Below, piece by piece: positions 35,213-62,068 of a stretch of DNA of 64,000 nucleotides. Source of the stretch: Gracilimonas mengyeensis (GTDB lineage Bacteria; Bacteroidota; Rhodothermia; Balneolales; Balneolaceae). The DNA lies in contig NZ_FXTP01000007.1 in NCBI RefSeq assembly GCF_900182705.1, forward strand, positions 124,001-188,000, in the 5' to 3' direction. The translations under genes were made by a program, and so were the position numbers. The stretch's first letter is position 1. Each line of letters begins with the position of its first letter. Under the pieces are notes generated by a model. It worked only from the letters and a program-made list of their open reading frames with translations, was not told the origin of the DNA and did not search any database.

Positions 35213-35241
35213 TTATCGGACTTAAAGAATGCAAACTTAAA
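35213..35241 (-). promoter_or_regulatory. Sigma-28 (FliA)-like promoter of the sCache MCP gene
   Basis: On the minus strand TTTAAG, 16 nt and CCGATAA (35219-35213), matching the FliA pattern with one extra base compared with most sites here. It lies about 120 bp upstream of the MCP start at 35094. Confidence 0.65.
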
Positions 35242-35448
35242 TATATGGCGCAGAGCAACTTAAGCGATCTGCAAATAATTCATTTGGACTAATTCATTTA
35301 TTTAGCTCAATTTACATCGAGCTCATAAACAACTCTTTCACGACCGCCTTCATCAAAATATAGTGTAGATATGCTTAACGGCCATATCATCCCTAAAGAA
35401 AACTTTGAGAGAACAAAACTCCTCCCCGCCCGTAAGCCCCTCTTGTAT

Positions 35449-35492
35449 TTATGTTTTTCGTGATACTGCCGATAATATAAATACCGGCAGTA
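35449..35492 (+). promoter_or_regulatory. Possible sigma-28-like promoter overlapping an inverted repeat
   Basis: TTAT (35449-35452), 16 nt, CCGATAA (35469-35475) has the correct spacing but a poorer -35. TACTGCCG (35464-35471) / CGGCAGTA (35485-35492) form an inverted repeat over the -10, which could be an operator or a hairpin. It would serve the small gene at 35551. The remainder of the 456-bp gap 35095-35550 shows nothing else I can name. Confidence 0.35.
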
Positions 35493-35550
35493 TTAGAGAA
35501 GGTACAAATGGTCTAATGGCCCCTGCCAAATAGAAAACTCAGGAGGTTTT

Positions 35551-35739
35551 ATGCATACTTTATTACACGATCCCCGGGTAGAGTTACCAATACGACTGCT
35601 TATCCTTGCTATAATTATTCTGGGCCTGAACTACTGCAACATGACAACCTCCGTCAATGAAGAATCCATATCTTCTTTTACTTCCTCTCAAACAACTTTG
35701 ACTATTGAATCACCGGTTGAAACCAATTTTGGTCCCTAA
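35551..35739 (+). CDS. Small single-helix membrane protein
   Basis: A 62-residue frame with a strong SD (AGGAGGTTTT) before its ATG. It has one hydrophobic helix (about 15-30, LPIRLLILAIIILGLNY) followed by a Ser/Thr-rich tail (SISSFTSSQTTLTI). It lacks a proper lipobox even though a Cys follows the helix. I recognise no family. It precedes the decarboxylase operon by 240 bp in the same direction, so it may be its leader gene or independent. Confidence 0.5.
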   Translation: MHTLLHDPRVELPIRLLILAIIILGLNYCNMTTSVNEESISSFTSSQTTLTIESPVETNFGP

Positions 35740-35978
35740 TTTTTACATCTCTATTACGCCAAGCCTTTAGTTGCTATTCATTGTCCAGTAGTTTTATAAA
35801 ACTACTTTCACCTCTCTTTGCTCTTCACACATAATTCATTTCACCTCAGTATTTAACAGCTGTTTATTTGAGGGCTTCAAAAGCGCTCAAATAAAACGCG
35901 TTCTTATCAAAATAGTTACCAGCAACGCCACTTTTGGCTGTTGCTGATATAGACCCAAAACTCACATCACACACTCAT

Positions 35979-37538
35979 ATGGGCACTAAAGAAGACATCA
36001 GGAAACTGGTTGAATACCGAGAAAAAGCGCGACTTGGCGGCGGCGAGAAGCGCATCGAATCACAACACGAAAAAGGAAAGTTTACAGCACGCGAACGAAT
36101 CGAATTTTTACTGGACGAAGGTAGTTTTGAAGAATTCGATATGTTTGTGACCCACCGAACCAAATCATTTGGATTATGGGATAAGCGCATTTTATCCGAT
36201 GCCGTAGTAACCGGTCATGGTACGATTGACGGACGTCTGGTTTACGTTTTTTCCCAGGATTTCACCGTATTTGGCGGCTCCCTGTCCGAGGTTTTTGCAC
36301 AGAAAATATGCAAGATCATGGATCAAGCTATGAAAATGGGCGCTCCCCTGATCGGAATTAATGACAGTGGCGGCGCACGGATTCAGGAAGGCGTTCGCAG
36401 CTTGGCTGGTTACGGCGACGTATTCCAGAAAAACATCGAGGCCTCCGGGGTCATCCCTCAAATATCAGCCATCTTTGGCCCTTGTGCCGGTGGCGCCGTG
36501 TACTCCCCCGCTCTTACCGACTTCACCATGATGGTGGAAAAAACCAGTTACATGTTCGTAACCGGTCCCAAAGTTGCTAAAACAGTAACCGGGGAAGACA
36601 TCACCGTTGAAGAGCTGGGCGGCCCCAACGTTCATGCTACCAAATCAGGTGTAACACACTTTGTGGCAGAAAATGAAGAGGAAGGCCTTTTAATGCTTCG
36701 CAAACTGCTGAGCTACCTCCCTCAAAACAACCTGGAAGATCCTCCTATCACCAAATGCGAAGATCCTATCGACCGGCTGGATGATGAGCTGAATGAAATC
36801 ATTCCTGACAGCCCACAGGTTCCATATAACGTGAAAGATATCATCTACACCATAGCAGATGATGGCGAGTTCCTGGAAGTTCACCGGAGATACGCCCGTA
36901 ATATTGTAGTTGGCTTTGCAAAATTTAACGGGATGCCTGTAGGTATTGTTGCCAATCAACCCAACTACCTGGCGGGTGTGCTAGATATTGAGGCCTCAAG
37001 AAAAGCAGCTCGTTTTGTACGCTTCTGCGATGCCTTTAATGTACCTCTGGTTACCTTGGTTGACGTGCCCGGCTTCCTGCCCGGTAGTGCCCAGGAATAT
37101 GGCGGTATTATAACACACGGTGCCAAATTACTGTATGCGTATGGTGAGGCCACGGTTCCAAAAATCACGGTAATTCTTCGTAAAGCATATGGCGGTGCCT
37201 ATGACGTAATGAGCTCCAAGCATCTGAAGAGCGATATCAATTACGCCTGGCCTTCTGCAGAGATTGCTGTTATGGGTCCCAAAGGAGCTGTAGAGATTCT
37301 TTACGGAAGAGAAGCCAGAGATATCGAGGACGAAGAGGAACGTGCCAAGTTTATGGCCGAAAAAGAGAAGGAATACAAAGACCGCTTCTCTAATCCCTAC
37401 GAGGCTGCCCGTTACGGCTACATTGATGATGTAATTGAGCCCCGAAATACCCGCTTCCGCATTATCCGGGCCCTGCAATCGCTGCAAACCAAGAAGCAGG
37501 TTAATCCACCCAAGAAACACAGTAACATTCCACTTTAA
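35979..37538 (+). CDS. mmdA: Methylmalonyl-CoA decarboxylase / acyl-CoA carboxylase carboxyltransferase subunit
   Basis: A carboxyltransferase of about 519 residues (crotonase fold twice). Motifs: [20 protein letters not shown] at the N-terminus, [19 protein letters not shown] and [18 protein letters not shown] in the first half, [20 protein letters not shown] and [14 protein letters not shown] in the second. It transfers the carboxyl group of methylmalonyl-CoA (or a related acyl-CoA) to biotin. I chose ATG 35979 because family proteins start just before the [10 protein letters not shown] helix; a TTG at 35934 would add 15 residues. The operon with the OadG-like, biotin and beta subunits shows it works as the alpha part of a Na+-pumping decarboxylase rather than as propionyl-CoA carboxylase. 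Confidence 0.9.
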
Positions 37539-37552
37539 GGACAGGAGCAACT

Positions 37553-37978: not shown

Positions 37979-37987
37979 TCACTCATC

Positions 37988-40936: not shown

Positions 40937-41335
40937 TTATTCCGATTTCGCCTGGTGTTTCTCCATGATAGCCTTCACCTTATCCTTCAGCAACACATGA
41001 GTAAGCGGTTTGTGCACAAAGCCAAGTCCTTTGCGCATGATAGCATCAATCCGGTCTTCATCGTTTTCAGTGGAAACAACAATAGCGGGGATGTCCTTCC
41101 ATTCTGGATGATCGTAGGTGTATTCCAACATTTCCATCCCGTCCATAATGGGCATATAGATATCCACAAGCATGAGGTCTATCTTCTCATTTTCAAGTAC
41201 GTCCAGCCCTTCTCTTCCGTTTTCAGCTTCATAGATTTCACCGATTTCAATTCCATCATCCACCGAAAGCACGGTGCTTCTTAAGACAACCCGCATGGCA
41301 GCATCATCTTCCACTATCAAAACGTTAATCTTCAT
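40937..41335 (-). CDS. cheY: CheY-like response regulator, single receiver domain
   Basis: A 132-residue receiver with acidic pocket E9-D10-D11, phosphorylation site D58 (LVDIYMPIMDG), Thr/Ser region VVSTEND and Lys in FVHKPLT. The F-V-H-K-P block is shared with the receivers at 54591 and 56591, marking a paralogous set distinct from classical CheY (61476). No output domain. It lies 44 bp downstream of the unknown membrane-protein gene (41380), with which it shares the sigma-28-like promoter at 41846. Role in chemotaxis is inferred from relatives and promoter. Confidence 0.88.
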   Translation of the reverse strand: MKINVLIVEDDAAMRVVLRSTVLSVDDGIEIGEIYEAENGREGLDVLENEKIDLMLVDIYMPIMDGMEMLEYTYDHPEWKDIPAIVVSTENDEDRIDAIMRKGLGFVHKPLTHVLLKDKVKAIMEKHQAKSE

Positions 41336-41379: not shown

Positions 41380-41784
41380 TTACAACAACAACGCCAACCC
41401 GATGGATATAATTGATATAACCAAAGCCGTTGCAGAGATTATGATAAAAGTTTCAACTTTCTTTTTCTCTGTTTTAAGATCTGCTAACACAGCGGCCACT
41501 AAGGGGAAGTTTACACTAAGTCCCTCGAATTTATCCGTTATAAAAAAAGTGGTAATCTCTCCCTTCTCATCCCTGTAGCTGTACTTTTTATTGAAGTGAT
41601 AAAACATACGGCCAAAAATCATGTCTTCTGAAACACCACATTCCTTAGCTACTTCTTTCACATCAACAGGCACGCGGATACGGGCAATACGATCGGGCTC
41701 TTCTCGGGCGTATTTCTTAAACTCATCGTAATACCGATAATAAATGTCCTCAAGAATTTCGAGGTCCGTAGGTATTTTGTCCAT
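41380..41784 (-). CDS. Tail-anchored membrane protein, unknown function, sigma-28-like promoter
   Basis: A 134-residue protein with a soluble N-terminal part (about 1-108) and one C-terminal membrane helix (about 112-132, FIIISATALVISIISIGLALLL). The soluble part contains VDVKEVAKECGVSEDMIFGR, which reads like a small helix-turn-helix-type segment, then HFNKKYSYRDEKGEITTFFI with beta strands. I recognise no family. It is transcribed from a FliA-type promoter and is followed by the single-domain response regulator gene, so it may be a motility component. Confidence 0.7.
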   Translation of the reverse strand: MDKIPTDLEILEDIYYRYYDEFKKYAREEPDRIARIRVPVDVKEVAKECGVSEDMIFGRMFYHFNKKYSYRDEKGEITTFFITDKFEGLSVNFPLVAAVLADLKTEKKKVETFIIISATALVISIISIGLALLL

Positions 41785-41845: not shown

Positions 41846-41872
41846 TTATCGGCTGAAAAGGCAAATACTTAA
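41846..41872 (-). promoter_or_regulatory. Sigma-28-like promoter of the 41380-cheY operon
   Basis: On the minus strand TTAA (41872-41869), 16 nt, CCGATAA (41852-41846), preceded by G as GCCGATAA. About 62 nt before the start at 41784. Confidence 0.75.
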
Positions 41873-42010: not shown

Positions 42011-42469
42011 TTAATCAGTAATTTGAAAATTGATCGGCATCGTGTAATACACTTTTACCGTTTTACCCTGATGTTTACCAGGAGTAAATTTTACTTTTTT
42101 AATCCCTTTCACGGCTGCTTCACCGCAACCAGCGCCAATGTCTTTGAGAATCTCCGGACTTTCTACATCGCCATTTTCATTCACAATAAATTTTATGAAT
42201 ACACGGCCTTCAATACCTCTGTTTGATGCAGAAGTTGGATATTCAATGTGTTTATAAATTTCAGGGAGGCCTCCTTCCACCTCCGGCATTTGGTCAACTA
42301 CCGTATAGATTTCAGAAGAATCGGCTATAGCATACCCAGCTTCACCGGTAGTCAGAGCATCAGGACTTGCAAAAGCTACTGTTGAGCTCAATAAAAAGGC
42401 TGCCAGCACGGCTACTGAAAGCAAAACTGTACGTTCTGATTTGTTGGGAGTAGAGAATAAATATTTCAT
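42011..42469 (-). CDS. TonB C-terminal-domain protein (energy-transducer-like)
   Basis: A 152-residue protein with a hydrophobic N-terminal segment (about 15-33, VLLSVAVLAAFLLSSTVAFA) and a TonB-type C-terminal domain (about 65-151): PEIYKHIEYPTSASNRGIEG, GRVFIKFIVNENGDV, and VKKVKFTPGKHQGKTVKVYY ending in PINFQITD. The Pro-rich linker of classical TonB is missing, and the signal appears cleavable (AFAS), so it may be periplasmic rather than a proton-motive TonB. No ExbBD genes are near. It has a sigma-28-like promoter next to cheW, which is unusual for a TonB relative. Confidence 0.82.
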   Translation of the reverse strand: MKYLFSTPNKSERTVLLSVAVLAAFLLSSTVAFASPDALTTGEAGYAIADSSEIYTVVDQMPEVEGGLPEIYKHIEYPTSASNRGIEGRVFIKFIVNENGDVESPEILKDIGAGCGEAAVKGIKKVKFTPGKHQGKTVKVYYTMPINFQITD

Positions 42470-42533: not shown

Positions 42534-42560
42534 TTATCGGCACAGCCTGAAATTTCTTAA
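42534..42560 (-). promoter_or_regulatory. Sigma-28-like promoter of the TonB-like gene
   Basis: On the minus strand TTTAAG, 15 nt, GCCGATAA (CCGATAA 42540-42534), i.e. TTAA-N16-CCGATAA. It lies just beyond the cheW stop and 65 nt before the TonB-like start. Confidence 0.75.
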
Positions 42561-42570: not shown

Positions 42571-43116
42571 TTATTCTGCTTCAGACTGCTCCAATACCTC
42601 TTCCTGAGCCACAGCATTTGCAGGTGCTTTCACCTCATCAGCTACGTCAAAAACTACCTTGTGTACATCTACAATCATCTTCACAGAATCCTGCACTTTG
42701 GCGATACCAGCCAGGTAATCGGAATTAGCTTCAATACCGAAAGAAGGCACTTCTTCAATTTGGTTGGTGATGATGTCGGCTACTTCCGACACTTTATCTA
42801 CTAAAACACCCATCAGGTATTTACCGTCTTGCACTACAATCACACAAGTCTCGTCTGTGTCTTCCACCGGCTGCAGACCGAAGCGAAGCCTCAGGTTCAT
42901 TACCGGTACAATTTTTCCTCTCAGGTTTAATACACCTCGTATGTATGAAGGCATTTTTGGTACAGGCGTAATGGGCATCAAGCCAATAATTTCCTGTACT
43001 TTAAGTATCTCAATTGCATACTCCTCTTCTCCAAGAAAGAAGCTCAAAAACTTGCCTCCTTCAATACCGGCTTCGTTGAGCTCAGTCTCTTTTTCTTTTA
43101 CAACTGTTTCTTCCAT
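42571..43116 (-). CDS. cheW: Chemotaxis coupling protein CheW
   Basis: A 181-residue CheW that links receptors to CheA. The core (about 20-155) has FLSFFLGEEEYAIEILKVQE, PSYIRGVLNLRGKIVPVMNL with the signature NLRG, and VGVLVDKVSEV-type strands. A 20-residue acidic C-terminal tail (QEEVLEQSEAE) is additional. It is the only separate cheW in the window; the big che cluster lacks one. A sigma-28-like promoter lies about 90 nt upstream. Confidence 0.95.
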   Translation of the reverse strand: MEETVVKEKETELNEAGIEGGKFLSFFLGEEEYAIEILKVQEIIGLMPITPVPKMPSYIRGVLNLRGKIVPVMNLRLRFGLQPVEDTDETCVIVVQDGKYLMGVLVDKVSEVADIITNQIEEVPSFGIEANSDYLAGIAKVQDSVKMIVDVHKVVFDVADEVKAPANAVAQEEVLEQSEAE

Positions 43117-43204: not shown

Positions 43205-43231
43205 TTATCGGTGTATTCCGAGTTTTCTTAA
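43205..43231 (-). promoter_or_regulatory. Sigma-28-like promoter of cheW
   Basis: On the minus strand TTAA (43231-43228), 16 nt, CCGATAA (43211-43205). The -35 context GTTTAAG is identical to that of the 42534 site. Confidence 0.75.
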
Positions 43232-43256: not shown

Positions 43257-44417
43257 TTACAGATTTAATATCAATCCAATATTAAACTGTGCATGCCCTG
43301 ACTTATCGGCCGAACGCAACCACTGGTAGTCTGTTTTTATTTCAATTCGCTTAAAAGGCTGATATAGCAGCCCCAGCGTATATTCTTGTCGCTGATATTT
43401 GGGTTCGTCTTCAAAGCCCTCAGTTCTATATTGGGTGTCATATGCTTCCATACGACCGTACGCAATCAAATGCTTTCCTTGTTTTCCAACCTGGGCATTG
43501 TAGAGAAAGTCGTAGCTAAGCTCTGCTAAGACACCATACTGAGCTGAACCGATATGCTCATGAAGGGCATAATTAATCTTTTCCGTTTCCGCTATGGCAC
43601 TATACACTCCAACTATTCTCGTCGTCACAGCTCCGGTTTTATAGGATGCAAAGCCTTCAAACATCGTATAGCTTGCTCCTTTGAGCTCGCTCCCATATTC
43701 CTGGTTGCTTTCCAAGCCTGAGTAAAGTACGGAAGTACCCAAAGTCAGATGATTATTCAGTTTATACTGTAGCTGTCCTGCTGCGGCAATATTATTTATT
43801 GAAGAAAATAGCCGGCTGTTTCTGGCATAGTATATTCCATATTTGCTGGATATTTCTGAAGCTTCAAGCCCTGTAGTAACACTGGCCTGATAACTTAATT
43901 TACCGCTCAAATCACCATACATTAATATCCCTAGTTCCCTCCAAGCGTAAGACAGGTACTTCTCTACGGGAGCCAGCTCCACACCGGCATACATCTTTGA
44001 ATGCGAAGCCGTAACTGGAAGGGACACCAATCCCGCTTTAAAACCGACTTTTTGGGTTTTGTGATAATCCAGATAGGCCTGTTTGAAGAAAGCATCCCCT
44101 CCATCATACTGGCTATCAAACACATGCTCTACTTCCAAAGCCGTCTTTATCTTTAGATGTTTATTCACCTTGTAGCCAGCTTTAAAATGAAGTTCATGGA
44201 AATCCAGCTCTCCTTGTTCAATTAGACCATATTTCCCGTCTACTGCATCATTGTAATGCAGTTCTGTGAGAATATTATAACTGAATTTTGATGCAAACTT
44301 CTCAGTGTACGGATCTTTATGCAGTTCATTATGCTGAGCCTGTACGTGAAAACAAGGCTGGGAGAAAATTCCTACCAACAGAACTATTGGCAGGTATTTT
44401 GAAACGTTAGAGTTCAT
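43257..44417 (-). CDS. Outer-membrane porin-like beta-barrel protein
   Basis: A 386-residue exported protein (signal peptide to about VQAQ, 28) made of alternating strands such as LHFKAGYKVNKHLKIKTALE, FKAGLVSLPVT, HLIAYGRMEAYD and QRQEYTLGLLYQPFKRIEIK. It ends in QFNIGLILNL, a Gram-negative porin-like last strand. The LYQPFKRIEIKTDY block resembles phosphate-selective porin-type (OprO/OprP-like) barrels. No sigma-28-like site precedes it, so it seems outside the motility regulon even though it sits among chemotaxis genes. Substrate unknown. Confidence 0.82.
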   Translation of the reverse strand: MNSNVSKYLPIVLLVGIFSQPCFHVQAQHNELHKDPYTEKFASKFSYNILTELHYNDAVDGKYGLIEQGELDFHELHFKAGYKVNKHLKIKTALEVEHVFDSQYDGGDAFFKQAYLDYHKTQKVGFKAGLVSLPVTASHSKMYAGVELAPVEKYLSYAWRELGILMYGDLSGKLSYQASVTTGLEASEISSKYGIYYARNSRLFSSINNIAAAGQLQYKLNNHLTLGTSVLYSGLESNQEYGSELKGASYTMFEGFASYKTGAVTTRIVGVYSAIAETEKINYALHEHIGSAQYGVLAELSYDFLYNAQVGKQGKHLIAYGRMEAYDTQYRTEGFEDEPKYQRQEYTLGLLYQPFKRIEIKTDYQWLRSADKSGHAQFNIGLILNL

Positions 44418-44527: not shown

Positions 44528-46246
44528 TTAAAAATCACCGAAGTCATCGTCATCAAATGGAATCAGTTCTTCTACCCGGCTTTTCTTAGGAGCTACCTTA
44601 TCCATGGGATGTAAAAAACCATTGCCTTTTTTAACCGTATTTCCTGTGACAGGTCTTTTTGGTGTAATAAATTCAGAGAAATTCATTTGGCTGTCTGCAG
44701 ATTCGAAGTATTTATTTGAAATCTGAATTTCTTCTGAAGTGGCATTTTTCCCGGATACCAGGCTTACCATCTCACTTACAATAGAATCCAACTCATTGGC
44801 CTGGGAGGATAACTCTTCGGCAGCACTGGCAGACTCTTCAGAAGCAGATGCATTGTCTTGTACCACATGATCCATTTCAGACATAATCGAATTCATCTGC
44901 TGAATACCAACGGACTGTTCTTTAGATGCCGCTGAAATTTCTTCTACCAGCGTATGTACATTGCCTATACTCTGTTCAATTTTCTTGAGGTTTTCGGATA
45001 CTTCTCCCGCTACTCCGGTACCACGATCAGAGTTTTCTTGTGATTTTTGTATTAACTCTGAAGTACTTTTAGCTGCTTCTGCACTACGCTGTGCCAAGTT
45101 TCTAACTTCTTCAGCTACTACTGCAAATCCCTTACCGGCTTCCCCTGCCCGTGCAGCTTCTACTGCTGCATTCAATGCCAGCAAGTTGGTCTGAAAGGCA
45201 ATATCATCGATAGTTTTAATAATCTTGGAGGTTTCCTGCGAAGAATTTCTAATTTCATCCATTGCATGATTCATACGCTCCATAGCCTCTACCCCTTTTT
45301 CTACCATCGGCCGAGCTTCCCGCATGGCTGATTCGGCTTCTGTTGAATTTTCGGCAGAAGCTTTGATCTGTGACGCCATTTCTTCCAGTGATGAAGTAGT
45401 TTCCTGGAGACTCGCCGCCTGTTCGCTTGAACTTTCAGCCAACGACTGGCTGGCTGTTGATAACTGATCTGAAGAAGCCGATACCTGCTCAGATCCGCTC
45501 TTAAGTCTTTCGATAATCCTTTTGAGGATACCACTTATCGACCTGCCAATAAAAAAGCCCAACACCATTGCTATAGTAACCGCGATGAGTGAAATAAAAC
45601 CGATAATCCATGTATAATTGAATACGGTGTGCTCGGTATTGATGGCCATTTGCCTAGCTGATCCTTCAGCTGACTGACGCACCTGAACAGACTTTGCCAG
45701 TAAAACTTCGTATTCCTTTTTCGCAGCCTGACGGGATGAAGTGAGTATTTGTGTAAGCTCAGCAGTCTTGGTACTGTCCTGGTTCTCTTCCAGGTTTTGG
45801 GTGGCTTGTTCATAGTTAATGAGATACCCTTCATAAAGATCAATTTCATCTTTCAACCCAACCAATTGCTTTTCAAGTACGGGAAGGTCATAATTATCAG
45901 CAAGTACTACCAGGGTATCATGATATCGGTTGATATCGGAAATGCGGGATAAAGCTGATTCAATATACTTCTCATCCCCTGTATTCGTATATGTAAGATG
46001 TTCATATCCGGCATTACGAACTTCGGTCTCAAATGCTGAGGCAGAGCTCCACTCATTCAAATAGACTTTACTTAAGTCTTTTGAATAAGTATCAATTTTG
46101 TACAATGAAAAGATGGCAATGGCACCTAATAATAGTGTGATGCCAGAAGTAATTATCGTCAACGAAACAATACGTTGACCTATGGTTCTTTGGGCTCTGC
46201 CAGTTCTTTTCTGGTTATAGCCACCTGAATGAATGTTGGATGTCAT
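44528..46246 (-). CDS. Methyl-accepting chemotaxis protein with helical sensor and LIPF-F tail
   Basis: A 572-residue chemoreceptor. TM1 (about 30-50) and TM2 (about 215-237) enclose about 165 residues of predicted helices (4HB/HBM-type sensor). TM2 passes straight into the signalling coil ([20 protein letters not shown]) without an evident HAMP. The hairpin tip is [20 protein letters not shown]. It ends [15 protein letters not shown]; the last five residues (D-F-G-D-F) fit the CheR/CheB-tethering consensus x-aromatic-x-x-aromatic. A sigma-28-like promoter lies 265 bp upstream, giving a long leader in which a 75-codon frame overlaps the start as ATGA. Confidence 0.95.
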
Positions 46247-46511: not shown

Positions 46512-46539
46512 TTATCGGACACGATTAAACTTTACTTAA
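46512..46539 (-). promoter_or_regulatory. Sigma-28-like promoter of the 44528 MCP gene
   Basis: On the minus strand GTTTAAG with TTAA at 46539-46536, 17 nt, CCGATAA (46518-46512). It has one base more spacing than most sites here. The predicted leader is about 255 nt. The 635-bp gap 46247-46881 also contains the terminator of the next MCP gene. Confidence 0.65.
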
Positions 46540-48750: not shown

Positions 48751-48777
48751 TTATCGGAGATCTCTATTAACACTTAA
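48751..48777 (-). promoter_or_regulatory. Sigma-28-like promoter of the 46882 MCP gene
   Basis: On the minus strand TTAA (48777-48774), 16 nt, CCGATAA (48757-48751). About 175 nt before the start at 48576. Confidence 0.75.
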
Positions 48778-51269: not shown

Positions 51270-51296
51270 TTATCGGATTGGTAGAAATAACCTTAA
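51270..51296 (-). promoter_or_regulatory. Sigma-28-like promoter of MCP duplicate A
   Basis: On the minus strand TTAA (51296-51293), 16 nt, CCGATAA (51276-51270). It aligns with the site at 53906 in duplicate B. Confidence 0.7.
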
Positions 51297-51700: not shown

Positions 51701-53404
51701 TTAAAAATCAACCAAATCATCTTCGAAAGGAATCAAGTCCATTGCCTTAGTGGTAACTACTTGTTTCTTAGTTTGATTATTTTTTTGAATGTTTCCATTC
51801 TTAGCGCCATTGGCTGAATGCTTAACTTTAGTTACTGCTTTTTTAATACCTGAAACAGCCCGTGATTTGGGCGCATAATTGGTATATGACTCAGTATGTA
51901 CATTAGCACTATTACCGTTAGCTGTTCCAACCAACTCCATCAGTTCATTCACTACGGTTTTTAGTTCCTGGGCCTGGGATGAAAGTTCTTCTGCAGCACT
52001 GGCTGATTCTTCAGAAGTAGAAGCATTATCCTGCACCACGTCATCCATTTCTGTCATGGCTGCGTTCATCTGCTGAATACCAACCGCCTGCTCTTTGGAG
52101 GCCGCAGATATTTCTGCTACCAGAGCCGCTACATTGTTAATGCTTTCTTCTATCTGATGCAGGTTGTCCGATACTTCCGTAGCTACACCGGTACCCCGCT
52201 CAGAGCTTTCCTGGGAACGCTGGATCAAATCAGACGTATCTTTTGCAGCTTCGGCACTTCGCTGGGCCAGGTTTCGTACTTCCTCTGCAACCACCGCAAA
52301 GCCTTTACCGGCTTCCCCGGCACGAGCCGCTTCTACCGCTGCATTCAGGGCTAACAGGTTGGTTTGAAAAGCAATATCGTCAATGGTTTTGATAATTTTC
52401 GAAGTCTCTTGCGAGGCTCCTTTAATCTCTTCCATAGTTTTGGTCATACGCTTCATGGCCTGAACTCCGTTTGCAACCATGGGCTGCGCTTCGGTCATAG
52501 CCGTTTCAGCCTCTCCGGCATTACCGGCATTCTGCTTAATCTGGGAAGACATTTCTTCCAGCGAAGAAGTGGTTTCCTGAAGGCTTGCTGCCTGTTCACT
52601 GGAACGTTCAGCCAATTCCTGGCTGGCACCGGATAATTGGGTTGAAGCCGAATTCACCTGTTCAGAACCACTATTCAATCGTTCGATAATAGAGCGGAGA
52701 GATTTGTTGATAGAACGGGTCATGTAATAGCCTAACAGCACAGAACCGGCAAGGCCTAAAATCAACCCAAGAATGCTAAGTGTTTTTAACACGGTACTTT
52801 GGGTGCTGGCTGAACTTATCGTGCCGGTGGCCTGATTTTGATTAATGTTTACCAAACCGGTCAATTCATTATTAACCTGATTAAAAGTTGGTATGATATC
52901 GGCCACGAAAAAACTGGTCAGGTTCTTGTAATCAGTACCGGTGCTATCCCTGCTAATTATGGCTTGATCAAATTTTCCAGAAAGAACTAAGAATTGCTCA
53001 TGCGTATTCTGCCATTTCTTAATACTTGGTTTAAGTTTTTCCCAGGCAATATCTTCTTCCTTACTATGGGGCAGATCAATGTATTCACTTTCAGCCTGCT
53101 GAAATCTTTCAAAACTACTGTTTATGATATCATAGATTTCCTTTCGGCGGTCTAAAGTCAGAGTTTGGTTCTGTAATGCTTCCTGAAAAGCATACACCGT
53201 AACCAACTCAATGTTCATATCCTGAAGCGTTTGTACGCTGGGTAATATAGCAGTACCGATTTCCTGTATGGTTTCTTCACTTTTATAAGCGCCGTAGTAT
53301 CCAATACCTCCTAAAACAAATACAACCGTTGCCAATGCAGTAAATGAAACCGTGAGTTTTTTACCAATGGTCCACGCTTTTTTATTAGTGTGTAGAGCGT
53401 TCAT
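51701..53404 (-). CDS. Methyl-accepting chemotaxis protein with four-helix sensor (duplicate B)
   Basis: A 567-residue chemoreceptor closely related to the gene at 48954 throughout the signalling half (for example [20 protein letters not shown] is the same) but with a clearly different sensor half ([40 protein letters not shown]). Same-start residues [20 protein letters not shown] define TM1; TM2 (about 215-235) leads to [20 protein letters not shown] with no HAMP. The tail is [14 protein letters not shown]. The pair therefore keeps the signalling output and tail while the sensor diverged, suggesting different ligands. A sigma-28-like promoter lies about 500 bp upstream. Confidence 0.95.
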
Positions 53405-53905: not shown

Positions 53906-53932
53906 TTATCGGACTAATAGAAAAAACCTTAA
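53906..53932 (-). promoter_or_regulatory. Sigma-28-like promoter of MCP duplicate B
   Basis: On the minus strand TTAA (53932-53929), 16 nt, CCGATAA (53912-53906). Confidence 0.7.
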
Positions 53933-54590: not shown

Positions 54591-54971
54591 TTAGTCTAAT
54601 ACTCCTAAAACAGACAGAATCTTTTCGCGGAGTTTTTCCGGGGTAAAAGGTTTATGCACGAATCCAGCATTATGTTCATTTATCCACTCAATACGTTGTT
54701 TATTACTTTCTGTGGATACAATAAGAACGGGTAAATCACGGGTATCCGGTGTATTACGGATGATGTCCAGCATTTCCATACCGTCCATAATAGGCATGTT
54801 CACGTCTATAAAGAGTAAATCAAGCCAGTTTTGGTCCAATATGTCCAGCCCTTCCTGTCCGTTGCTGGCTTCATATATATCGCCTACATCCACATTACTG
54901 CGGTGTATGGTCTTCTTTATCATACTGCGCATTACGGCGCTGTCGTCTACTACGAGTATATTTATAGGCAT
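54591..54971 (-). CDS. cheY: CheY-like response regulator (last gene of che cluster)
   Basis: A 126-residue receiver with D9-D10 acidic pair, phosphorylation site D56 (FIDVNMPIMDGMEML), IVSTESN and the Lys in FVHKPFT. It is close to the receiver at 40937 (both have MPIMDGMEML and VSTE) and less so to 56591; together they form the F-V-H-K-P set. It has no output domain. It follows cheB by 27 bp and ends the operon before its terminator. The role may be motor control or a phosphate sink; not decidable. Confidence 0.92.
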   Translation of the reverse strand: MPINILVVDDSAVMRSMIKKTIHRSNVDVGDIYEASNGQEGLDILDQNWLDLLFIDVNMPIMDGMEMLDIIRNTPDTRDLPVLIVSTESNKQRIEWINEHNAGFVHKPFTPEKLREKILSVLGVLD

Positions 54972-54998
54972 CTTAAGCTCCTGCCAGGGATTTTCTAA

Positions 54999-56072
54999 TT
55001 ACGCTGTTGGCTGTTTGGTTTGTTGTTTCATATGGCTTACAATAGAACCGGCAATATTTTGCAAAGGAAGTACCTGTTCTACCGCGCCAATGTTGTAGGC
55101 CTCTTTAGGCATTCCGTACACCACCGATGTGGCTTCATCCTGCCCGATAGTAAAAGCGCCTTTGTTTTTCATAGCAAGCAAACCTTTGGCACCGTCTGCT
55201 CCCATTCCCGTCAAAATAACACCCATGGCATTCACACCGGCAGCGTCGGCTACCGAGTTGAACATTACATCCACGCTTGGGCGTTGATGATGCACCTGGG
55301 GCCCTTGCTTGATACGGGTATAGTACTTGGCTCCACTTTTTTCCACCAGCATGTGGAAGTTACCGGGAGCAATAAGCACTTTACCTGGTTCAATAAGGTC
55401 ACCATCTTCGGCTTCTTTAACCGTGAGAGCACAAATTTGATTTAAGCGATCGGCAAAACTCTTTGTAAAAACCGGAGGCATGTGTTGTACGATAACAATT
55501 CCGGGTAAATTAGCCGGCAAATGGGTCAGCACGGTTTCCAGTGCTCGTGTACCTCCTGTTGATGAGCCAATGGCGATCAACTTGTTGGTGGTATGTACCA
55601 GGTTATAATTGCCCGTTACACCATCTGTTGGTTTAGCTACTCGGGTTCTTCCATTTGAATGAACAGCCGATTGTCGGTCAAGTCGCGCGACGGAAGCCGT
55701 ACGCACTGCGCGGATGATATCCTGAGAAATATTTTGAGTAGAATAAGCCGATCCTGGTTTACAGATTACATCTACCGCTCCCAGGCGTAATGCGTTCAGT
55801 GCATTCTGGCTGTTTTTAGGGGTCAGTGAACTCACCACCACTACCGGCATAGGAAAGTGCTTCATCAGCTTTGACAGGAACGACAGCCCGTCCATACGGG
55901 GCATCTCCAAATCAAGGGTAAGCACATCCGGTTTTAGTTCAATAATTTTTTCCCGGGCTATGTACGGGTTCATTGCCGTACCAACCACTTCAATATCTTT
56001 TTGTTTATTCAGATCTTCGGTTAAAAGTTTCCGAACCAAAGCTGAATCATCTACTACCAGAACTTTGATCAT
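54999..56072 (-). CDS. cheB: Chemotaxis methylesterase/deamidase CheB
   Basis: A 357-residue CheB. The N-terminal receiver has D8-D9 and D54 (LTLDLEMPRMDGL). The C-terminal methylesterase has its catalytic triad: S171 in AIGSSTGGTRALE, H197 in VIVQHMPP and D293 in GMGADGAKG. It demethylates and deamidates receptors, opposite to CheR. Its ATG overlaps the stop of the second cheX gene by 4 bases (ATGA), so they are translationally coupled. The length of about 30 linker residues between the domains is normal. Confidence 0.96.
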   Translation of the reverse strand: MIKVLVVDDSALVRKLLTEDLNKQKDIEVVGTAMNPYIAREKIIELKPDVLTLDLEMPRMDGLSFLSKLMKHFPMPVVVVSSLTPKNSQNALNALRLGAVDVICKPGSAYSTQNISQDIIRAVRTASVARLDRQSAVHSNGRTRVAKPTDGVTGNYNLVHTTNKLIAIGSSTGGTRALETVLTHLPANLPGIVIVQHMPPVFTKSFADRLNQICALTVKEAEDGDLIEPGKVLIAPGNFHMLVEKSGAKYYTRIKQGPQVHHQRPSVDVMFNSVADAAGVNAMGVILTGMGADGAKGLLAMKNKGAFTIGQDEATSVVYGMPKEAYNIGAVEQVLPLQNIAGSIVSHMKQQTKQPTA

Positions 56073-56575
56073 AGGTCTTCCGCGTTATAATAAATAGAAA
56101 TTTCTGCGATGCCCTCATCCAGCAGCACTTCCACATCTTCTCTGGTCATGCCTTTAAATAATTCGTCGGTATCTTCACCCTGAGCGGCAATTCGTGGTGG
56201 CCTGATGTAGCAAATCTGTTCATCATGAGCAAATAAAGGCACGGTGTTGCCACAAATGATATTGGCTATTTCACACAGTGCACCTTCCTTTTCCTCATCA
56301 TTGGCTTCTTCCACCCCAAGCATATTGGCTGCCAGGGCTTCCAACAAATCTTCAGAGGGTGATATAACCATCGCTCCTTCGGCTGCACCGTCAAAACGTA
56401 CTATCGAACGAACGTTGCCATCGGGGCGCTCCAGTTCACCTGCATCTTCCAGTTCCCATTCTTCCATAGGAAACATGTAGCATGTGAGTTCAAAAATATT
56501 GTATGCAATCTCCTGTATCTGGTCTTGATAGCCCGCAGAAGGTGATTGAGTTTTATTTGTTAATTCTGTTTCCAT
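56069..56575 (-). CDS. cheX: CheX-like phosphatase (second copy)
   Basis: A 168-residue protein with the CheC/CheX/FliY phosphatase fold. The active helix is EGALCEIANIICGN with the E-x-x-N pair; the N-terminal block ELTCYMFPMEEWEL and SIVRFDGAAEGAMVISPS fit CheX-type strands. It would dephosphorylate CheY-P. The acidic C-terminal part (TREDVEVLLDEGIAEISIYY) is additional. It is coupled to cheB by a 4-bp overlap and follows a cheY by 15 bp, which may mean it is dedicated to that receiver. It is only distantly similar to the first cheX (60963). Confidence 0.78.
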   Translation of the reverse strand: METELTNKTQSPSAGYQDQIQEIAYNIFELTCYMFPMEEWELEDAGELERPDGNVRSIVRFDGAAEGAMVISPSEDLLEALAANMLGVEEANDEEKEGALCEIANIICGNTVPLFAHDEQICYIRPPRIAAQGEDTDELFKGMTREDVEVLLDEGIAEISIYYNAEDL

Positions 56576-56590
56576 GTCAATAGCCTTAAT

Positions 56591-57001
56591 TTATTTTGGT
56601 GCAGCGCCTGGCCTTATTATCGATTGCTTCTCTAAAATCTTAAGCATTTTATCCCGAAGTGCTTCTACACAAAAGGGTTTATGCACGAAACCTTCGGTTA
56701 TGTCTGTTATAATTTCCACCCGGGTTTCGTTGCTTTCAGCAGATACGGTTAGTACGGGTACATATCGCAGGTTATCATCCACACGCATTTCAGCAATCAT
56801 CTCTGCTCCGTTTTTAACCGGCATATTCAGATCTACAATTGCGAGGTCGAAATCCATATTTCTTACCCATTCCAATCCTTCTTTACCATCTCCGGCTTCA
56901 ATAACTTCTACCGAATCAAATCCGCAAAGCTCTACGGTGCGTTTAATAATCTTTCGCATCACCGGGCAATCATCTACTATTAATACTCTTACATCCATCA
57001 T
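56591..57001 (-). CDS. cheY: CheY-like response regulator (middle of che cluster)
   Basis: A 136-residue receiver with D10-D11, phosphorylation site D57 (IVDLNMPVKNGAEMI), TVSAESN and FVHKPF. It carries Lys-Asn (PVKNG) in place of the usual acidic MDG after the site. It ends with a short tail (KQSIIRPGAAPK). It sits between cheD and the second cheX, with 11-bp and 15-bp gaps, and belongs to the F-V-H-K-P set. Confidence 0.92.
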   Translation of the reverse strand: MMDVRVLIVDDCPVMRKIIKRTVELCGFDSVEVIEAGDGKEGLEWVRNMDFDLAIVDLNMPVKNGAEMIAEMRVDDNLRYVPVLTVSAESNETRVEIITDITEGFVHKPFCVEALRDKMLKILEKQSIIRPGAAPK

Positions 57002-57012
57002 TCTCTCCGCGG

Positions 57013-57534
57013 TTAAACGCTTTTGATATATTGGTTAGTCACCGAAGAAGCTCTCTTTGGTGCATTGATAGGTTGTTTATTTATTGTGACTACACCATCT
57101 GCCACAGAGAGTGTCATGGTCCGTGAGATATTTCCTCCCACATCCTGATGGGCAATCATGAATCCGTTTTTCCAGAGGAGCTTACGAAGAGTGGTAAAAT
57201 TTCTCTTCCCAATCTTAAAATAATCGTCGCCATCCCCTCTTTTCATGCTGGCTCCACCCGCAACAATGATCTCAATATTATCTTTGCGGGCACCAAGGTC
57301 ATATACCTTGTGCAATAGCCATTGCAAACCGGTATCCACATACATGGCGGGCTTTTGCTTTGCTTTTTCCGGATCAGCCTTAGATAGTGGAAGCATTACA
57401 TGCACCATTCCACCCACTCCGGCTACCGGATCAAATGCCGTAATCCCAAGGCAGCTACCCAAAGCATGGGTTATTATTATCTCCCCGGGATTATTCGAAA
57501 CCTTTAAATCGCTTACTCCTACTACTTTTCTCAT
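57013..57534 (-). CDS. cheD: Chemoreceptor glutamine deamidase CheD
   Basis: A 173-residue CheD that deamidates specific receptor glutamines and can pair with CheC/CheX. Catalytic Cys28 is in ALGSCLGI and His45 in GGMVHVMLP; FKIGKRNF and IAHQDVGGNISRTMTL complete the family signature. The presence of CheD together with CheX-type phosphatases points to a Bacillus/Thermotoga-style adaptation set rather than the enteric CheZ type. Gaps are 13 bp to cheR and 11 bp to cheY. The C-terminal 15 residues (PKRASSVTNQYIKSV) are extra. Confidence 0.95.
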   Translation of the reverse strand: MRKVVGVSDLKVSNNPGEIIITHALGSCLGITAFDPVAGVGGMVHVMLPLSKADPEKAKQKPAMYVDTGLQWLLHKVYDLGARKDNIEIIVAGGASMKRGDGDDYFKIGKRNFTTLRKLLWKNGFMIAHQDVGGNISRTMTLSVADGVVTINKQPINAPKRASSVTNQYIKSV

Positions 57535-57547
57535 TTAGCCGCGTTTA

Positions 57548-58381
57548 TCATCGTTTTTGGTAAACCGCAGGGGCCAAATTCACAAAGCTCCTGTTTTCTT
57601 TCGGGATACTCTCTGAGTGTCCTAAAAATAAATAGCCGCCCGGTTCCAACAGTTGATGAAACTTAGCTACCAATTCCTGTTGTGTCTGCCTGTTAAAATA
57701 GATCATCACATTCCGGCACATAATCACATTAAACGGACCTTTTAGCGGCCACCTGTCCATCAGGTTTAAGCGCCCGTAGGTAATCATCTTGCGTATTTCA
57801 TTCGATACATGGAAATGTCCATTATCGTGAGAAAAGTACTTACGAAGAATATCCTGGGGTACGCCAGCCATTTTTGAAGCGGGATACACACCCTGTTTGG
57901 CAACTTCCAGCACGTCTCTGGAAAGATCCGTAGCCAGGATTTTTACCGAACCCCAGCCTGTATGTTGTTTGGCTTCCAGCAAGGTAATGGCCGTCGTTAT
58001 GGGCTCTTCTCCCGTAGAACACCCGGCATTCCACCATTTCACAGAACGTCCCCTCAGTTCAGGTAACACGCGGGATTCAATAAAATCGAAGTGTTTGGCT
58101 TCTCTGAAAAAATTCGTCTTGTTGGTAGTGATTACATCTACCAAAGCAAGAAATTCTTCCCCGGAAGAATCTGAATCTACATAATTCAGATATTCCTTAA
58201 AGCTTGAAAGTCCCAGTTTTCGTACGCGTTTCATCAGTCGGCTCTGTACCAGAGCCTCCTTGCCTTCTTGTATAAAAATACCGCTGTATCCATGAATGAT
58301 TTTCCGAACTTTCTGGAATTCATCATTTGTCAGCTTTAGCCCACCCACGGGCCTGGATACTTGTTCAACCGAGGACCTCAT
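57548..58381 (-). CDS. cheR: Chemoreceptor methyltransferase CheR
   Basis: A 277-residue CheR that methylates receptor glutamates with S-adenosylmethionine. The N-terminal helical domain (about 15-80) is followed by TNKTNFFREAKHF, the SAM site WNAGCSTGEEPIT, LATDLSRDVL and NVIMCRNVMIYFNRQT. A beta-subdomain with GRLNLMDRWPL is present, the part that in pentapeptide-dependent CheR proteins binds the receptor tail; this fits the x-F-x-x-F receptor ends in the window. It has an SD (AAGGAGT) 8 bp before the start and lies 34 bp after cheA. Confidence 0.95.
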   Translation of the reverse strand: MRSSVEQVSRPVGGLKLTNDEFQKVRKIIHGYSGIFIQEGKEALVQSRLMKRVRKLGLSSFKEYLNYVDSDSSGEEFLALVDVITTNKTNFFREAKHFDFIESRVLPELRGRSVKWWNAGCSTGEEPITTAITLLEAKQHTGWGSVKILATDLSRDVLEVAKQGVYPASKMAGVPQDILRKYFSHDNGHFHVSNEIRKMITYGRLNLMDRWPLKGPFNVIMCRNVMIYFNRQTQQELVAKFHQLLEPGGYLFLGHSESIPKENRSFVNLAPAVYQKR

Positions 58382-58415
58382 ATTCTTACTCCTTTTTCCT
58401 TTGAATTATAGCTCT

Positions 58416-60929
58416 TTATTCCATCAGGGCGGCAGTATCAAGAATCAACCCTACGCGACCATCTCCCATAATGGCGCCTCCGGAAATATGATCCATCTTC
58501 GCCATGATATTTATTGATTTACCTACCAGTTGCTGCTGCCCAATCACCTCGTCAACCAACAGTGCATAGCGCTTGTTGTTGTTTTTGATGACTAACAAAG
58601 TGCCTTCAGTCAGCTTCTCGACCGCACCTTTAATTTCAAATAAACGGTGCAGCCTGATTACCGGTACCGAATGGCCACGGAAGGATACCTGCTCTGAGTT
58701 ACCCATCACCGTAAATACATCATTGTTTTCGGCACGGAAGGTCATGTCAATATTGATGGTTGGGACGATAAAGCGATCCTGCCCAACCCGTACCACCATA
58801 CCGTCGGTGATAGCCAGGGTAAACGGAAGCTCAATGGTTATCGTGGTTCCTTTACCCAGTTCAGAGTTCACATCCACTTTACCTTGCAGCTGTTCAATGG
58901 AACGGCGAACTACATCCATACCTACTCCACGGCCCGACAAGTCGGTAACTTTCTCAGCCGATGAAAAACCAGGCAGGAAGATGAGATTGTAGATCTCTTT
59001 ATCTGACAGTTTCTTGTCAGGATCAATCAGGCCTTTTTCAATGGCTTTATTCAGGATCACATCTTTGTTGATACCACGGCCGTCATCTACAATCTTGATC
59101 ACTACTTTACCGCCTTCCTGAGAAGCTGAAAGCACAACTTCCGCTACCTCATCTTTATCGGTTTTCTTACGCTCTTCGGGTGTTTCTATACCGTGATCCA
59201 AACTGTTACGAAGCATGTGGATCAGCGGCTCGTTGATGACGTCCACCATGTTACGGTCAATCTCGGTGTCTTCACCAACGGTGATCAACTTCACATTTTT
59301 ACCGGCTTTGCGGGAGATATCCCGTACCAGGCGGTTCATCTTGTGGAAAGTGGCTTTCAACGGTACCATGCGCAGGGTCAAACTGGTGTCCTGCAGTTCA
59401 CGGATAATTTTTGTAGCGTGATTTACTTTACGCTGTAACTCAGAATCCTTGGGAATGGCCTTGTCTTGCGCCACTACCGAGTGGGCAATTACCAGCTCGC
59501 CAACCATGTCAATCAGACGATCCAATCGGTTTACGCTTACCCGTACCGATGACTCTGTTTCAGCACCTGAAGATTTATCTCCACCACCGGTTGATTCACC
59601 ATTCACTTTTTCTGCTGATTCCTGAGCATCTGAAGCGGCTTTAAGTTCAGCTTCTTCCTCAGCGTCAGCTATCGCATCTGCAATGTTTTCAGCTTCTTGT
59701 TTAAAAGCATCTTTGGGTTGTACATTTTCTTCTGATACTGCATGAAGCACTTTCATCATTGGGGCAAAAGCAGGAGGTTCCGGTAGCGGATCTCCACCTT
59801 GAGCCTGCTCCACCACGGCCAGCATCTGGTTTATAATATCAATGGATTCCAGGGAAATATCGGCACAAGCCCGGTCAAAACTCAGTTTGCCTTCGCGTAC
59901 CATACTCAGGAATGTTTCCACCGAGTGGGTAAATTCGGAAATGGGATCCAAGCCCATAAAAGCCGAAGTACCTTTGATCGTATGGAAAGCACGGAATACC
60001 GTGTTAATCAGCTCTTCGTCATCAGGACGTTCTTCAAGGTCCAGCAAAGCACCTTCCGCCATCTGAATTAGATCAGAACATTCCGTCACAAATTCGCCCA
60101 CCATAGATATCTCAATATCCTGTGGGATGTGAAATACTTCAGTTTCAGCTTCTTCAGTAACAGGTTCTTCCTTCGCTACTTCGGGCTCCGCTTTTGCGGG
60201 TTTTTCTTCGGATGAAGCCTGAGATTCTTCCCACTCCTCCTGTGATTCCGCCTCGATAGCCTGTTCGGTTTTATCGGATACCTGGGTGAACCAGTCGTCA
60301 TCGCCGTTGCCTTCAGCAACTTTTACAATAACTTCTTTAGCCTCGTTAAGGGCTTTGGCACTTTCACCGTCAGCTTTTGCTGCAAGATGATCAATAAGAG
60401 CCGCCAGTTGCTTGATCTCATCATCTTCCACAGAATCTTCATTCAGTGTCATGATAAAGGAAGCCAGATCATCAAGCGTAACACCATCCTGGTTGCCGGA
60501 AGCTTTTTTCTCTGCTTCTGCCTTTTCCAGGTGAGCCTTGATTTCTTCGTCGTCAAGCTCAATTACGGTATCCGCAGATTCGGCTCCTCCCAAAAGGGAC
60601 TTTTCCAGTTCTCCGTATGATTTTTCAAATTCCTCTACCTTTATATCGCCGTCCTGGACAATATATTCACGAATAGTGTTCACGGCCTGCATTGTTGCCG
60701 CTTTCACCATCATAAAGTATTCGTCTTTTTCGTAGAGGTGCTTCAGGCCGTCCCAGGAAAGGTTGATCAGCTTTTGCATCTGACCAAAATTCTGGTCGAA
60801 GTTGTCTATTACCTGTTCAAATCGGGCACCTGCTTCTGGCAGGTTTTCACGATCGGCAGGCCAGATATCGGCCATAAGCCGGATAATAGCACCCAGCTCT
60901 TCCGTCAAATGTTCTTTGTTATCGCTCAT
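58416..60929 (-). CDS. cheA: Chemotaxis histidine kinase CheA with long N-terminal extension
   Basis: An 837-residue CheA. Residues 1-270 are a helical, acidic region without a recognised domain (for example DNFDQNFGQMQKLINLSWDG), followed by the HPt domain with phosphorylated His316 in FRAFHTIKGTSAFMG. After an acidic linker there is the P3 dimerisation region (VNRLDRLIDMVGELVIAHS), the P4 kinase core (HMLRNSLDHGIE as N box, VDDGRGIN, LSGRGVGMDVV) and the P5 CheW-like domain from about 700. A P2 CheY/CheB-binding domain is not evident. Classical CheA begins with the HPt, so the extension is unusual. The gene has an AAGGAGT SD and sits third in the cluster. Confidence 0.95.
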   Translation of the reverse strand: MSDNKEHLTEELGAIIRLMADIWPADRENLPEAGARFEQVIDNFDQNFGQMQKLINLSWDGLKHLYEKDEYFMMVKAATMQAVNTIREYIVQDGDIKVEEFEKSYGELEKSLLGGAESADTVIELDDEEIKAHLEKAEAEKKASGNQDGVTLDDLASFIMTLNEDSVEDDEIKQLAALIDHLAAKADGESAKALNEAKEVIVKVAEGNGDDDWFTQVSDKTEQAIEAESQEEWEESQASSEEKPAKAEPEVAKEEPVTEEAETEVFHIPQDIEISMVGEFVTECSDLIQMAEGALLDLEERPDDEELINTVFRAFHTIKGTSAFMGLDPISEFTHSVETFLSMVREGKLSFDRACADISLESIDIINQMLAVVEQAQGGDPLPEPPAFAPMMKVLHAVSEENVQPKDAFKQEAENIADAIADAEEEAELKAASDAQESAEKVNGESTGGGDKSSGAETESSVRVSVNRLDRLIDMVGELVIAHSVVAQDKAIPKDSELQRKVNHATKIIRELQDTSLTLRMVPLKATFHKMNRLVRDISRKAGKNVKLITVGEDTEIDRNMVDVINEPLIHMLRNSLDHGIETPEERKKTDKDEVAEVVLSASQEGGKVVIKIVDDGRGINKDVILNKAIEKGLIDPDKKLSDKEIYNLIFLPGFSSAEKVTDLSGRGVGMDVVRRSIEQLQGKVDVNSELGKGTTITIELPFTLAITDGMVVRVGQDRFIVPTINIDMTFRAENNDVFTVMGNSEQVSFRGHSVPVIRLHRLFEIKGAVEKLTEGTLLVIKNNNKRYALLVDEVIGQQQLVGKSINIMAKMDHISGGAIMGDGRVGLILDTAALME

Positions 60930-60962
60930 AATACTCCTTTTTCCTGGATTCCTGACTTTGTT

Positions 60963-61463
60963 TTATTTTGATTCACTCATAGCCATGTTGAGCATGAATT
61001 GCCCACAAGGACTATTGAAAAGCATTTTTTCTGTTGGTGGTTTGTTGGGCATAAACAAGGTTAAGTCACTGCCCCGTGTAGCTGTAGGTAAAGACGATTG
61101 GCCTCTAAATCCTACTTTCTCAATATTAGCAGCTACTTCGCCAGCCAGAATATTGGCAATTTCCCCAATCAGGTCGCCCATATCATCGCTGTCGAAAGGA
61201 AGCTCCATACCTAAAAAGGCATCAGATATTTTTAGTGCCGTATCTTTTGGCAATGCCATCATTAATGAAAAAGTAAGCTCTGGGTTAAAAACCGCAATAT
61301 TTCCGATTATACCGTTTAAAGGTCTTGATCCCACTTCAGGATCATCTACGAATTCAGGAGCTTCACCACAAATAGAGGCAAATGTATTAATTACCGATTC
61401 TCTAACTACTTCTGTAACTTTTGCGGGTATATGGTCCGCTTTCTTTAATTCTTCTGTGATCAT
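60963..61463 (-). CDS. cheX: CheX phosphatase (first copy)
   Basis: A 166-residue CheX-type CheY-P phosphatase. The helix DDMGDLIGEIANILAGEVAA carries the E-x-x-N catalytic pair, and GIIGNIAVFNPELTFSLMMA plus LSL-type strands fit the fold; SLPTATRGSDLTLFMP is the C-terminal strand pair. It follows the first cheY by 12 bp and precedes cheA by 33 bp, so it probably acts on that CheY. No CheZ is in the cluster. Confidence 0.88.
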   Translation of the reverse strand: MITEELKKADHIPAKVTEVVRESVINTFASICGEAPEFVDDPEVGSRPLNGIIGNIAVFNPELTFSLMMALPKDTALKISDAFLGMELPFDSDDMGDLIGEIANILAGEVAANIEKVGFRGQSSLPTATRGSDLTLFMPNKPPTEKMLFNSPCGQFMLNMAMSESK

Positions 61464-61475
61464 TTTACCCGATTA

Positions 61476-61928
61476 TTAAGATTTAAGGATGCTGCTGAAG
61501 AAGCTTTTCTTTTCGTCGCCCTCTTCCTCACCACCAGTTGCGATTTGTCCATTGTCATCAAAGTAACGGCTGATGGCTTTGCTCATCTTATCTGCCGTAA
61601 ATGGCTTGGTGATGTATTCGTTGGCGCCACCTTCATTCAGCGCTTTATCCACCTTACCCATTGACTTCTCTGCGGTAACCATGATTATGGGAATTTTGTC
61701 ATATCCCTTATCACGTATGGCTCTGGAAAATTCTACACCGGTCATTTTCGGCATATTCCAATCCACAAACAGTATGTCTATGTCATCATTAAATTTCTCG
61801 AGGGCATCCTCGCCGTCCATTGCCTCCTCATATTCAAATTCAGCAATCATTAATTGGTCAAGTGCTCGTTTCACCTGACTTCTCATGATCTTTGAATCAT
61901 CTACAACAAGTGCCTTAATTTTACTCAT
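61476..61928 (-). CDS. cheY: CheY response regulator (first gene of che cluster)
   Basis: A 150-residue classical CheY: D10-D11, site D56 (FVDWNMPKMTGVEF), VTAEK and Lys in YITKPFT. A C-terminal extension of about 22 residues (ATGGEEEGDEKKSFFSSILK) after the receiver is acidic then basic and absent from standard CheY. Its D-W-N-M-P-x-M-x-G block is that of motor-type CheY, so this is the best candidate for the flagellar-motor signal. It opens the operon, with the sigma-28-like promoter 115 bp upstream. Confidence 0.95.
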   Translation of the reverse strand: MSKIKALVVDDSKIMRSQVKRALDQLMIAEFEYEEAMDGEDALEKFNDDIDILFVDWNMPKMTGVEFSRAIRDKGYDKIPIIMVTAEKSMGKVDKALNEGGANEYITKPFTADKMSKAISRYFDDNGQIATGGEEEGDEKKSFFSSILKS

Positions 61929-62041
61929 ATTTCACTCCTGGTTTACTTGGCTAATTGTAACCTGATATCCTGGTTCTGTTTTAAAATTGATTTATGTACC
62001 AACCCGCAGAAATGTCTGCGAATGCTATTGGATTACGGCTG

Positions 62042-62068
62042 TTATCGGTTGGGATCAAAATTCCTTAA
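62042..62068 (-). promoter_or_regulatory. Sigma-28-like promoter of the che operon
   Basis: On the minus strand CTTAAG with TTAA at 62068-62065, 16 nt, CCGATAA (62048-62042). Predicted leader of about 105 nt before the first cheY. It lies in the 798-bp gap 61929-62726 along with the MITE at 62171 and repeat copy 3. Confidence 0.75.

Follow-up and report, generated by a model that had tools for sequence, protein, structure and literature searches.

What reads the nine copies of a promoter-like motif that lie among the chemotaxis genes of Gracilimonas mengyeensis (order Balneolales, family Balneolaceae), and which machine do the genes behind them serve? The motif was noticed in a stretch of 64,000 nucleotides (nt), positions 124,001 to 188,000 of contig NZ_FXTP01000007.1, which we call the window; the genome comprises 4.67 Mb in 33 contigs. 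Sequence comparison indicates that the nine sites are very probably promoters of RNA polymerase carrying the sigma factor FliA (sigma-28) and belong to a single late-motility regulon. The machine served by this regulon is the flagellum.

The motif TTAAG-N15/16-CCGATAA matches the window exactly at nine places, every one on the minus strand, and nowhere else. In 100 dinucleotide-preserving shuffles the mean was 0.03 and the maximum 1, with none of the 100 reaching nine. The original prediction had located nine sites, and each agrees with the sequence letter for letter; it had also assigned them the exact geometry of FliA promoters, and here the spacing and the -10 element are the same but the -35 element reads TTAAG rather than TAAAG. 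The fifth -35 base, G, is invariant in all nine sites, the motif being TTAAG and not just TTAA. The spacer is 15 nt in seven sites and 16 nt in those at 35213 and 46512. Of the nine boxes, seven lie 61-265 nt from the next start codon, and those at 51270 and 53906 lie 633 and 501 nt from it. A looser search allowing two mismatches (N15 only) returned 13 matches in the window compared to a shuffle mean of 6.5, and because 2 of 100 shuffles also reached 13 we abandoned such matching as unsafe. Pfam scans covered 21 window proteins, among which are the five methyl-accepting chemotaxis proteins (MCPs) counted here, and they agree with the claim that the sites precede all five MCPs, cheW, the che cluster and two other units, namely the gene of a 134-amino-acid (aa) protein with a receiver gene behind it and the gene of a 152-aa TonB_C protein.

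The genome as a whole contains 21 exact sites, and the reversed pattern occurs 3 times. Every one of the 21 is intergenic and is followed after 7-633 nt by a start on the same strand, although 74% of random positions fall within long open reading frames (ORFs); among sites with TTAA but not TTAAG, of which 13 exist, 7 of 12 examined are intergenic. Since one-mismatch counts, exact sites included, barely exceed the control (64 vs 58 for N15, 47 vs 40 for N16), we restricted the count to exact matches and to sites that either precede flagellins or are conserved in relatives. Each of six flagellin genes has TTAAG-N15-(A/G)CGATAA upstream, with one -10 base changed, and none has the exact form. 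Targets outside the window are motAB-fliLMN, two MCPs that each have their own site, a PAS protein with no match to an MCP domain, a PAS and a GAF histidine kinase, a TonB-dependent receptor (plug domain), a 119-aa gene after fliD, and three similar proteins of 372-393 aa with the look of outer-membrane proteins. Of the regulon members anticipated in the original prediction, motAB and flagellin were thus found with sites; flgM was not identified, a genome-wide search for it not having been run.

A sigma-28 gene, on whose presence the prediction depended, is encoded in the genome: FliA scores 225 bits against the TIGR02479 cut-off of 189.6, and falls below the cut-offs of the narrower NCBI equivalog models PRK06986 and PRK06288. 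Its gene lies behind flagellar export genes on another contig, as the last in a run with FlhB (Pfam), FlhA, an SRP54-type GTPase and a ParA/MinD-type ATPase; from gene order we take the latter two to be FlhF and FlhG. Relatives of this FliA in named genomes put the organism within Balneolaceae, and the closest of them belongs to a Balneola metagenome-assembled genome. Flagellin_N has seven matches in the genome. We take six of these to be flagellins, of which two are truncated at contig ends; the seventh, a shorter protein, is read as FlgL from its position. MotA, MotB, FliL, FliM and FliN (Pfam), FliD and FliS are also encoded. With FlhA and six flagellin genes outside the window, the expectation that flagella would be encoded elsewhere is borne out. 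We identify the machine as the flagellum because FliA lies behind FlhB, FlhA and FlhF-like genes and the genome has six flagellins.

Across 128 genomes of the order, the sites go with FliA. The 52 genomes in which FliA exceeds the family cut-off contain 301 exact sites, compared to 87 matches to the reversed-pattern control, and the 76 in which it does not contain 108, compared to 111. In genera holding both kinds of genome, the mean is higher with FliA in 10 of 10 (Wilcoxon p 0.001), and in 9 of 9 without the sister genus g2 discussed below, which adds nothing by number (mean 2.7 sites with FliA and 1 without; control 3.0). The sites also recur at orthologues. In three genomes of the same genus (G022, G023 and G024), exact sites precede motA, the cheY-cheA operon, cheW and the TonB_C gene, in G023 within the called 5' end of the latter ORF. 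G009, of genus g3, has an ACGATAA form before motA, cheY and cheW, the exact form before an MCP and flagellins, and none at the TonB_C gene. Some MCP orthologues in relatives carry the site. Of 34 flagellin loci across the order, one lacked an ORF; T(T/A)AAG-N15/16-NCGATAA is present at 27 of the remaining 33 and absent from 6, and 15 of 23 distinct N15 sites at these loci have A immediately ahead of CGATAA, where the window sites have C. The GC-rich spacer of flagellin promoters was considered as an operator and rejected, as it is not uniform across the order.

We propose that FliA, encoded at the end of the flhB-flhA-flhF-flhG-fliA run, would recognize TTAAG at -35 and (C/A)CGATAA at -10, with 15 or sometimes 16 bases between them, and would turn on the late motility genes together, through a single regulon with 27 promoters or more, of which 21 are exact and 6 precede flagellins. 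These genes would comprise flagellins, motAB-fliLMN, chemoreceptors, the che cluster, cheW, sensory kinases and a few cell-surface proteins. We infer that transcription would actually start from the sites, that its timing would be set by completion of the hook, and that there would be an anti-sigma factor. The class III targets of FliA in Escherichia coli and Salmonella are flagellin, mot, MCP and che genes, and the same kinds of target appear here. The sigma family and the promoter geometry are likewise the same, the E. coli sigma-28 consensus being given as TAAAGTTT-n11-GCCGATAA (PMC2859248). The G. mengyeensis system differs in its -35 element (TTAAG vs TAAAG), in tolerating 16-base spacing, in flagellin promoters that are mostly ACGATAA, and in targets that include sensory kinases and outer-membrane-like proteins.

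Several observations weigh against this proposal. No more than two sites occur in eight of the 52 genomes with FliA (two of the eight belong to g2), and at least five occur in four of the 76 without it. The 52 and 76 genomes are related and the cases are not independent, which the comparison within genera eases only in part. The second -35 base departs from the E. coli consensus, the leaders of two MCP genes are long at 501 and 633 nt, and the two small proteins under sigma-28 control that are encoded after fliD, the only candidates searched, gave no FlgM match. Three of the four exceptions without FliA (G033, G102 and G108) have flagellin, and therefore their FliA may merely be missing from the assembly; these assemblies are 82-94% complete in 360-590 contigs. 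The fourth, G035 (98% complete), has five exact sites and zero control matches, and lacks FliA over the cut-off, flagellin and FlhA.

Among other explanations, the strongest is that some other regulator, or the housekeeping sigma factor, acts at the sites and that FliA is coincidental, which we regard as improbable. It would accommodate a g2 genome without detected FliA (G006) that keeps sites before two genes, and a palindrome, ATTAAGA-N2-4-T(C/T)TAAT, that in relatives overlaps the -35 element at some sites; however, the excess of sites over control is confined to genomes with FliA, the 64-kb window contains no such palindrome, and geometry and -10 agree with known sigma-28 promoters. It is very unlikely that the regulon serves a non-flagellar machine, for example one for gliding or pili: pilin-like clusters adjoin two sigma-28 MCPs (L045), but in this genome no exact site belongs to such clusters themselves, whereas the genome encodes flagellin and FlhA and has a site before motAB-fliLMN. 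Chance matching in an AT-rich region, which could explain the two-mismatch count, has a negligible probability for the exact matches and is ruled out by the shuffles, the intergenic position of all 21 sites and footprinting in relatives.

The features of the window under FliA control, as we propose it, are collected in Table 1. One further site, which has a single mismatch and belongs to a match class barely above control, possibly serves as a promoter within the che run, and a comparable GCGATAA site precedes the CheX/CheC orthologue in G024 (L206 2517-2543).

Table 1. Predicted sigma-28 promoters and the genes downstream of them, in window coordinates
Feature	Position	Strand	Remarks
Sigma-28 promoter, N16 (predicted)	35213..35240	-	upstream of MCP 33499-35094
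Sigma-28 promoter (predicted)	41846..41872	-	upstream of 134-aa gene 41380-41784 and receiver gene 40937-41335
Sigma-28 promoter (predicted)	42534..42560	-	upstream of TonB_C gene 42011-42469
Sigma-28 promoter (predicted)	43205..43231	-	upstream of cheW 42571-43116
Sigma-28 promoter, N16 (predicted)	46512..46539	-	upstream of MCP 44528-46246 and 386-aa gene 43257-44417
Sigma-28 promoter (predicted)	48751..48777	-	upstream of MCP 46882-48576
Sigma-28 promoter (predicted)	51270..51296	-	upstream of MCP 48954-50636, 633-nt leader
Sigma-28 promoter (predicted)	53906..53932	-	upstream of MCP 51701-53404, 501-nt leader
Sigma-28 promoter of che cluster (predicted)	62042..62068	-	cheY 61476-61928 through receiver gene at 54591
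Candidate internal che promoter, TTAAG-N15-TCGATAA, one mismatch	56617..56643	-	before CheX/CheC gene 56069-56575
MCP, Cache_2-type sensor	33499..35094	-	Pfam
Receiver-domain protein, behind 134-aa gene	40937..41335	-	Pfam
134-aa protein, no family match over cut-off	41380..41784	-	in motility loci of the four relatives read
152-aa protein, TonB_C domain	42011..42469	-	Pfam
CheW	42571..43116	-	Pfam
386-aa protein, weak DUF2490 match below cut-off	43257..44417	-	Pfam
MCP	44528..46246	-	Pfam
MCP, Cache_3-type sensor	46882..48576	-	Pfam
MCP, four-helix-bundle sensor	48954..50636	-	Pfam
MCP, four-helix-bundle sensor	51701..53404	-	Pfam
che cluster, nine genes: CheY, CheX, CheA, CheR, CheD, receiver, CheX/CheC, CheB, receiver	54591..61928	-	Pfam

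Some of these genes, and others in the regulon, showed additional features. The TonB_C gene product consists of little beyond that domain, inside the motility regulon of this clade. The predicted model of the 134-aa protein places its helices in a winged-helix-like order with a long C-terminal helix, and searching by fold returned nothing at E <= 0.001. The promoter-proximal leaders of the two MCP genes with distant sites (51089-51262 and 53729-53897, minus strand) have 74% identity over 174 nt; the same helices are predicted in both, and one of the differences between them is compensatory. Considered as possible riboswitches, they fold unremarkably (z -0.75 and -1.60), and Rfam, which finds one tRNA over threshold in the whole window, gave only chance-level matches and no family in this stretch. 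The one leader tried against a plasmid collection had no match there, neither leader matched anything beyond the other among the loci compared, and a covariance model built from both returned five matches in the 128 genomes, consisting of the two leaders themselves and three weaker ones in unrelated contexts. Elsewhere in the genome, three successive sigma-28 sites precede the three outer-membrane-like genes (L040:8487-16104, contig C1), two of which are followed by 141-aa PBP_like_2 genes and the last also by an MCP. A sulfotransferase gene lies behind an exact site (L046:3342-4160, contig C14), and its product possibly modifies flagellin or surface sugars.

A different situation was encountered in g2, a sister genus in Balneolaceae represented by eight genomes (G001-G008; L183-L202, L333-L372) that are 98-100% complete. 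Flagellin and FlhA were searched for in all eight and found in none, and FliA exceeds the cut-off in seven, G006 being the exception. The five g2 FliA proteins that were aligned are full length, and the region that binds the -35 element is conserved in them. The ratio of nonsynonymous to synonymous substitution rates (dN/dS) of fliA is 0.096-0.106 in three close pairs, with dS saturated in most other pairs. The gene lies in a different, non-flagellar neighborhood that is syntenic in the five genomes read. The sites are not enriched in g2: the exact pattern occurs 19 times in the seven genomes with FliA, compared to 21 for the control, and a relaxed pattern occurs 54 times in all eight, compared to 97 for the reversed control. 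Taken alone, this count argues against a large regulon because it is lower than the control, whereas the position of the sites speaks for one. Thirty-seven of the 54 relaxed sites are intergenic with a start within 120 nt, compared to 144 of 1500 random positions in the examined stretches; nine of the 37 have their -35 inside the palindrome, and 28 of 45 remain when these are excluded.

The g2 sites precede orthologous genes, with orthology judged from sequence similarity at sight and BLAST rather than a tree. These include the receiver gene RR2 in six genomes; a HisKA_2 kinase (two proteins scanned), a lipoprotein with Ig-like or invasin-like domains (G006 included; two scanned) and a lipoprotein-like protein of 521-527 aa in four genomes each, the last with an ammonium transporter nearby in three; and, in three genomes each, a small gene transcribed divergently from fliA and pilin-like clusters or a gene that separates such clusters. 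A fourth site of the fliA-divergent kind, in G003, is followed by no called ORF. We consider it somewhat likely that g2 lost the flagellum and that sigma-28 was kept under purifying selection in a non-flagellar locus and rewired, such that FliA would control a conserved set of genes for sensory kinases, receiver-only response regulators, lipoproteins (among them some with Ig domains) and a pilin-like cluster. The case is built on the position and orthology of putative promoters, not on their number. Two findings speak against rewiring: the sites are not present in every g2 species, and G006 retains its two despite having no detected FliA.

The palindrome was found at 21 distinct places (29 matches with duplicate loci), compared to 1 for the reversed pattern, a count biased by the choice of the examined sequence around these genes. 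Its positions include L045:12568, L185:10006, L129:2271, L228:3840 and L232:3824. It occurs 41-62 nt upstream of g2 fliA in four genomes, as well as upstream of pilin-like clusters in five genomes and of the receiver RR1 in three; five more g2 sites read TTAAGA-N2-TCTTAA in the corresponding position. It looks like an operator of some other regulator. The pilin-like clusters of G. mengyeensis (L045:9602-15571, contig C11) have three genes each, for proteins of about 140-180, 200 and 356-446 aa. Relatives of the third protein occur in 73 of the 128 genomes, and among five cluster proteins scanned one matched DUF4900 and the rest had no Pfam match over the cut-off.

Sigma-28 factors without flagella occur also in Chlamydia and Streptomyces. 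Legionella oakridgensis, which is non-flagellated, has, like g2, lost flagellar genes and kept FliA (PMC5655016). It also keeps FlgM, for which g2 was not searched, and g2 is set apart from what is described there by its orthologous candidate promoters before kinases, receivers and lipoproteins. One study, by its own method, reports FliA matches in 41% of non-motile genomes (PMC12199754). Within Balneolaceae, flagella are listed for Balneola vulgaris (PMC5167729) and the flagellar route is called incomplete in the strains of another study (PMC9909488); sigma-28 control was not found in the excerpts of either. As judged by titles and the beginnings of abstracts, we found no Balneolales sigma-28 regulon in the open-licence literature among the matches listed.

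The system itself is a flagellar regulon of the textbook kind, in an order that has received little study. It provides a sigma-28 promoter consensus, tested by genome comparison, for an order with none among those literature matches, and the motility regulons of the order could then be read from genomes. The g2 observation, which lies outside the window, is the unexpected part worth following. If true, g2 would be a natural example of the redeployment of a flagellar sigma factor to surface sensing or attachment, and its comparison with flagellated relatives would offer a before-and-after view of how the targets of a sigma factor change when the flagellum goes.

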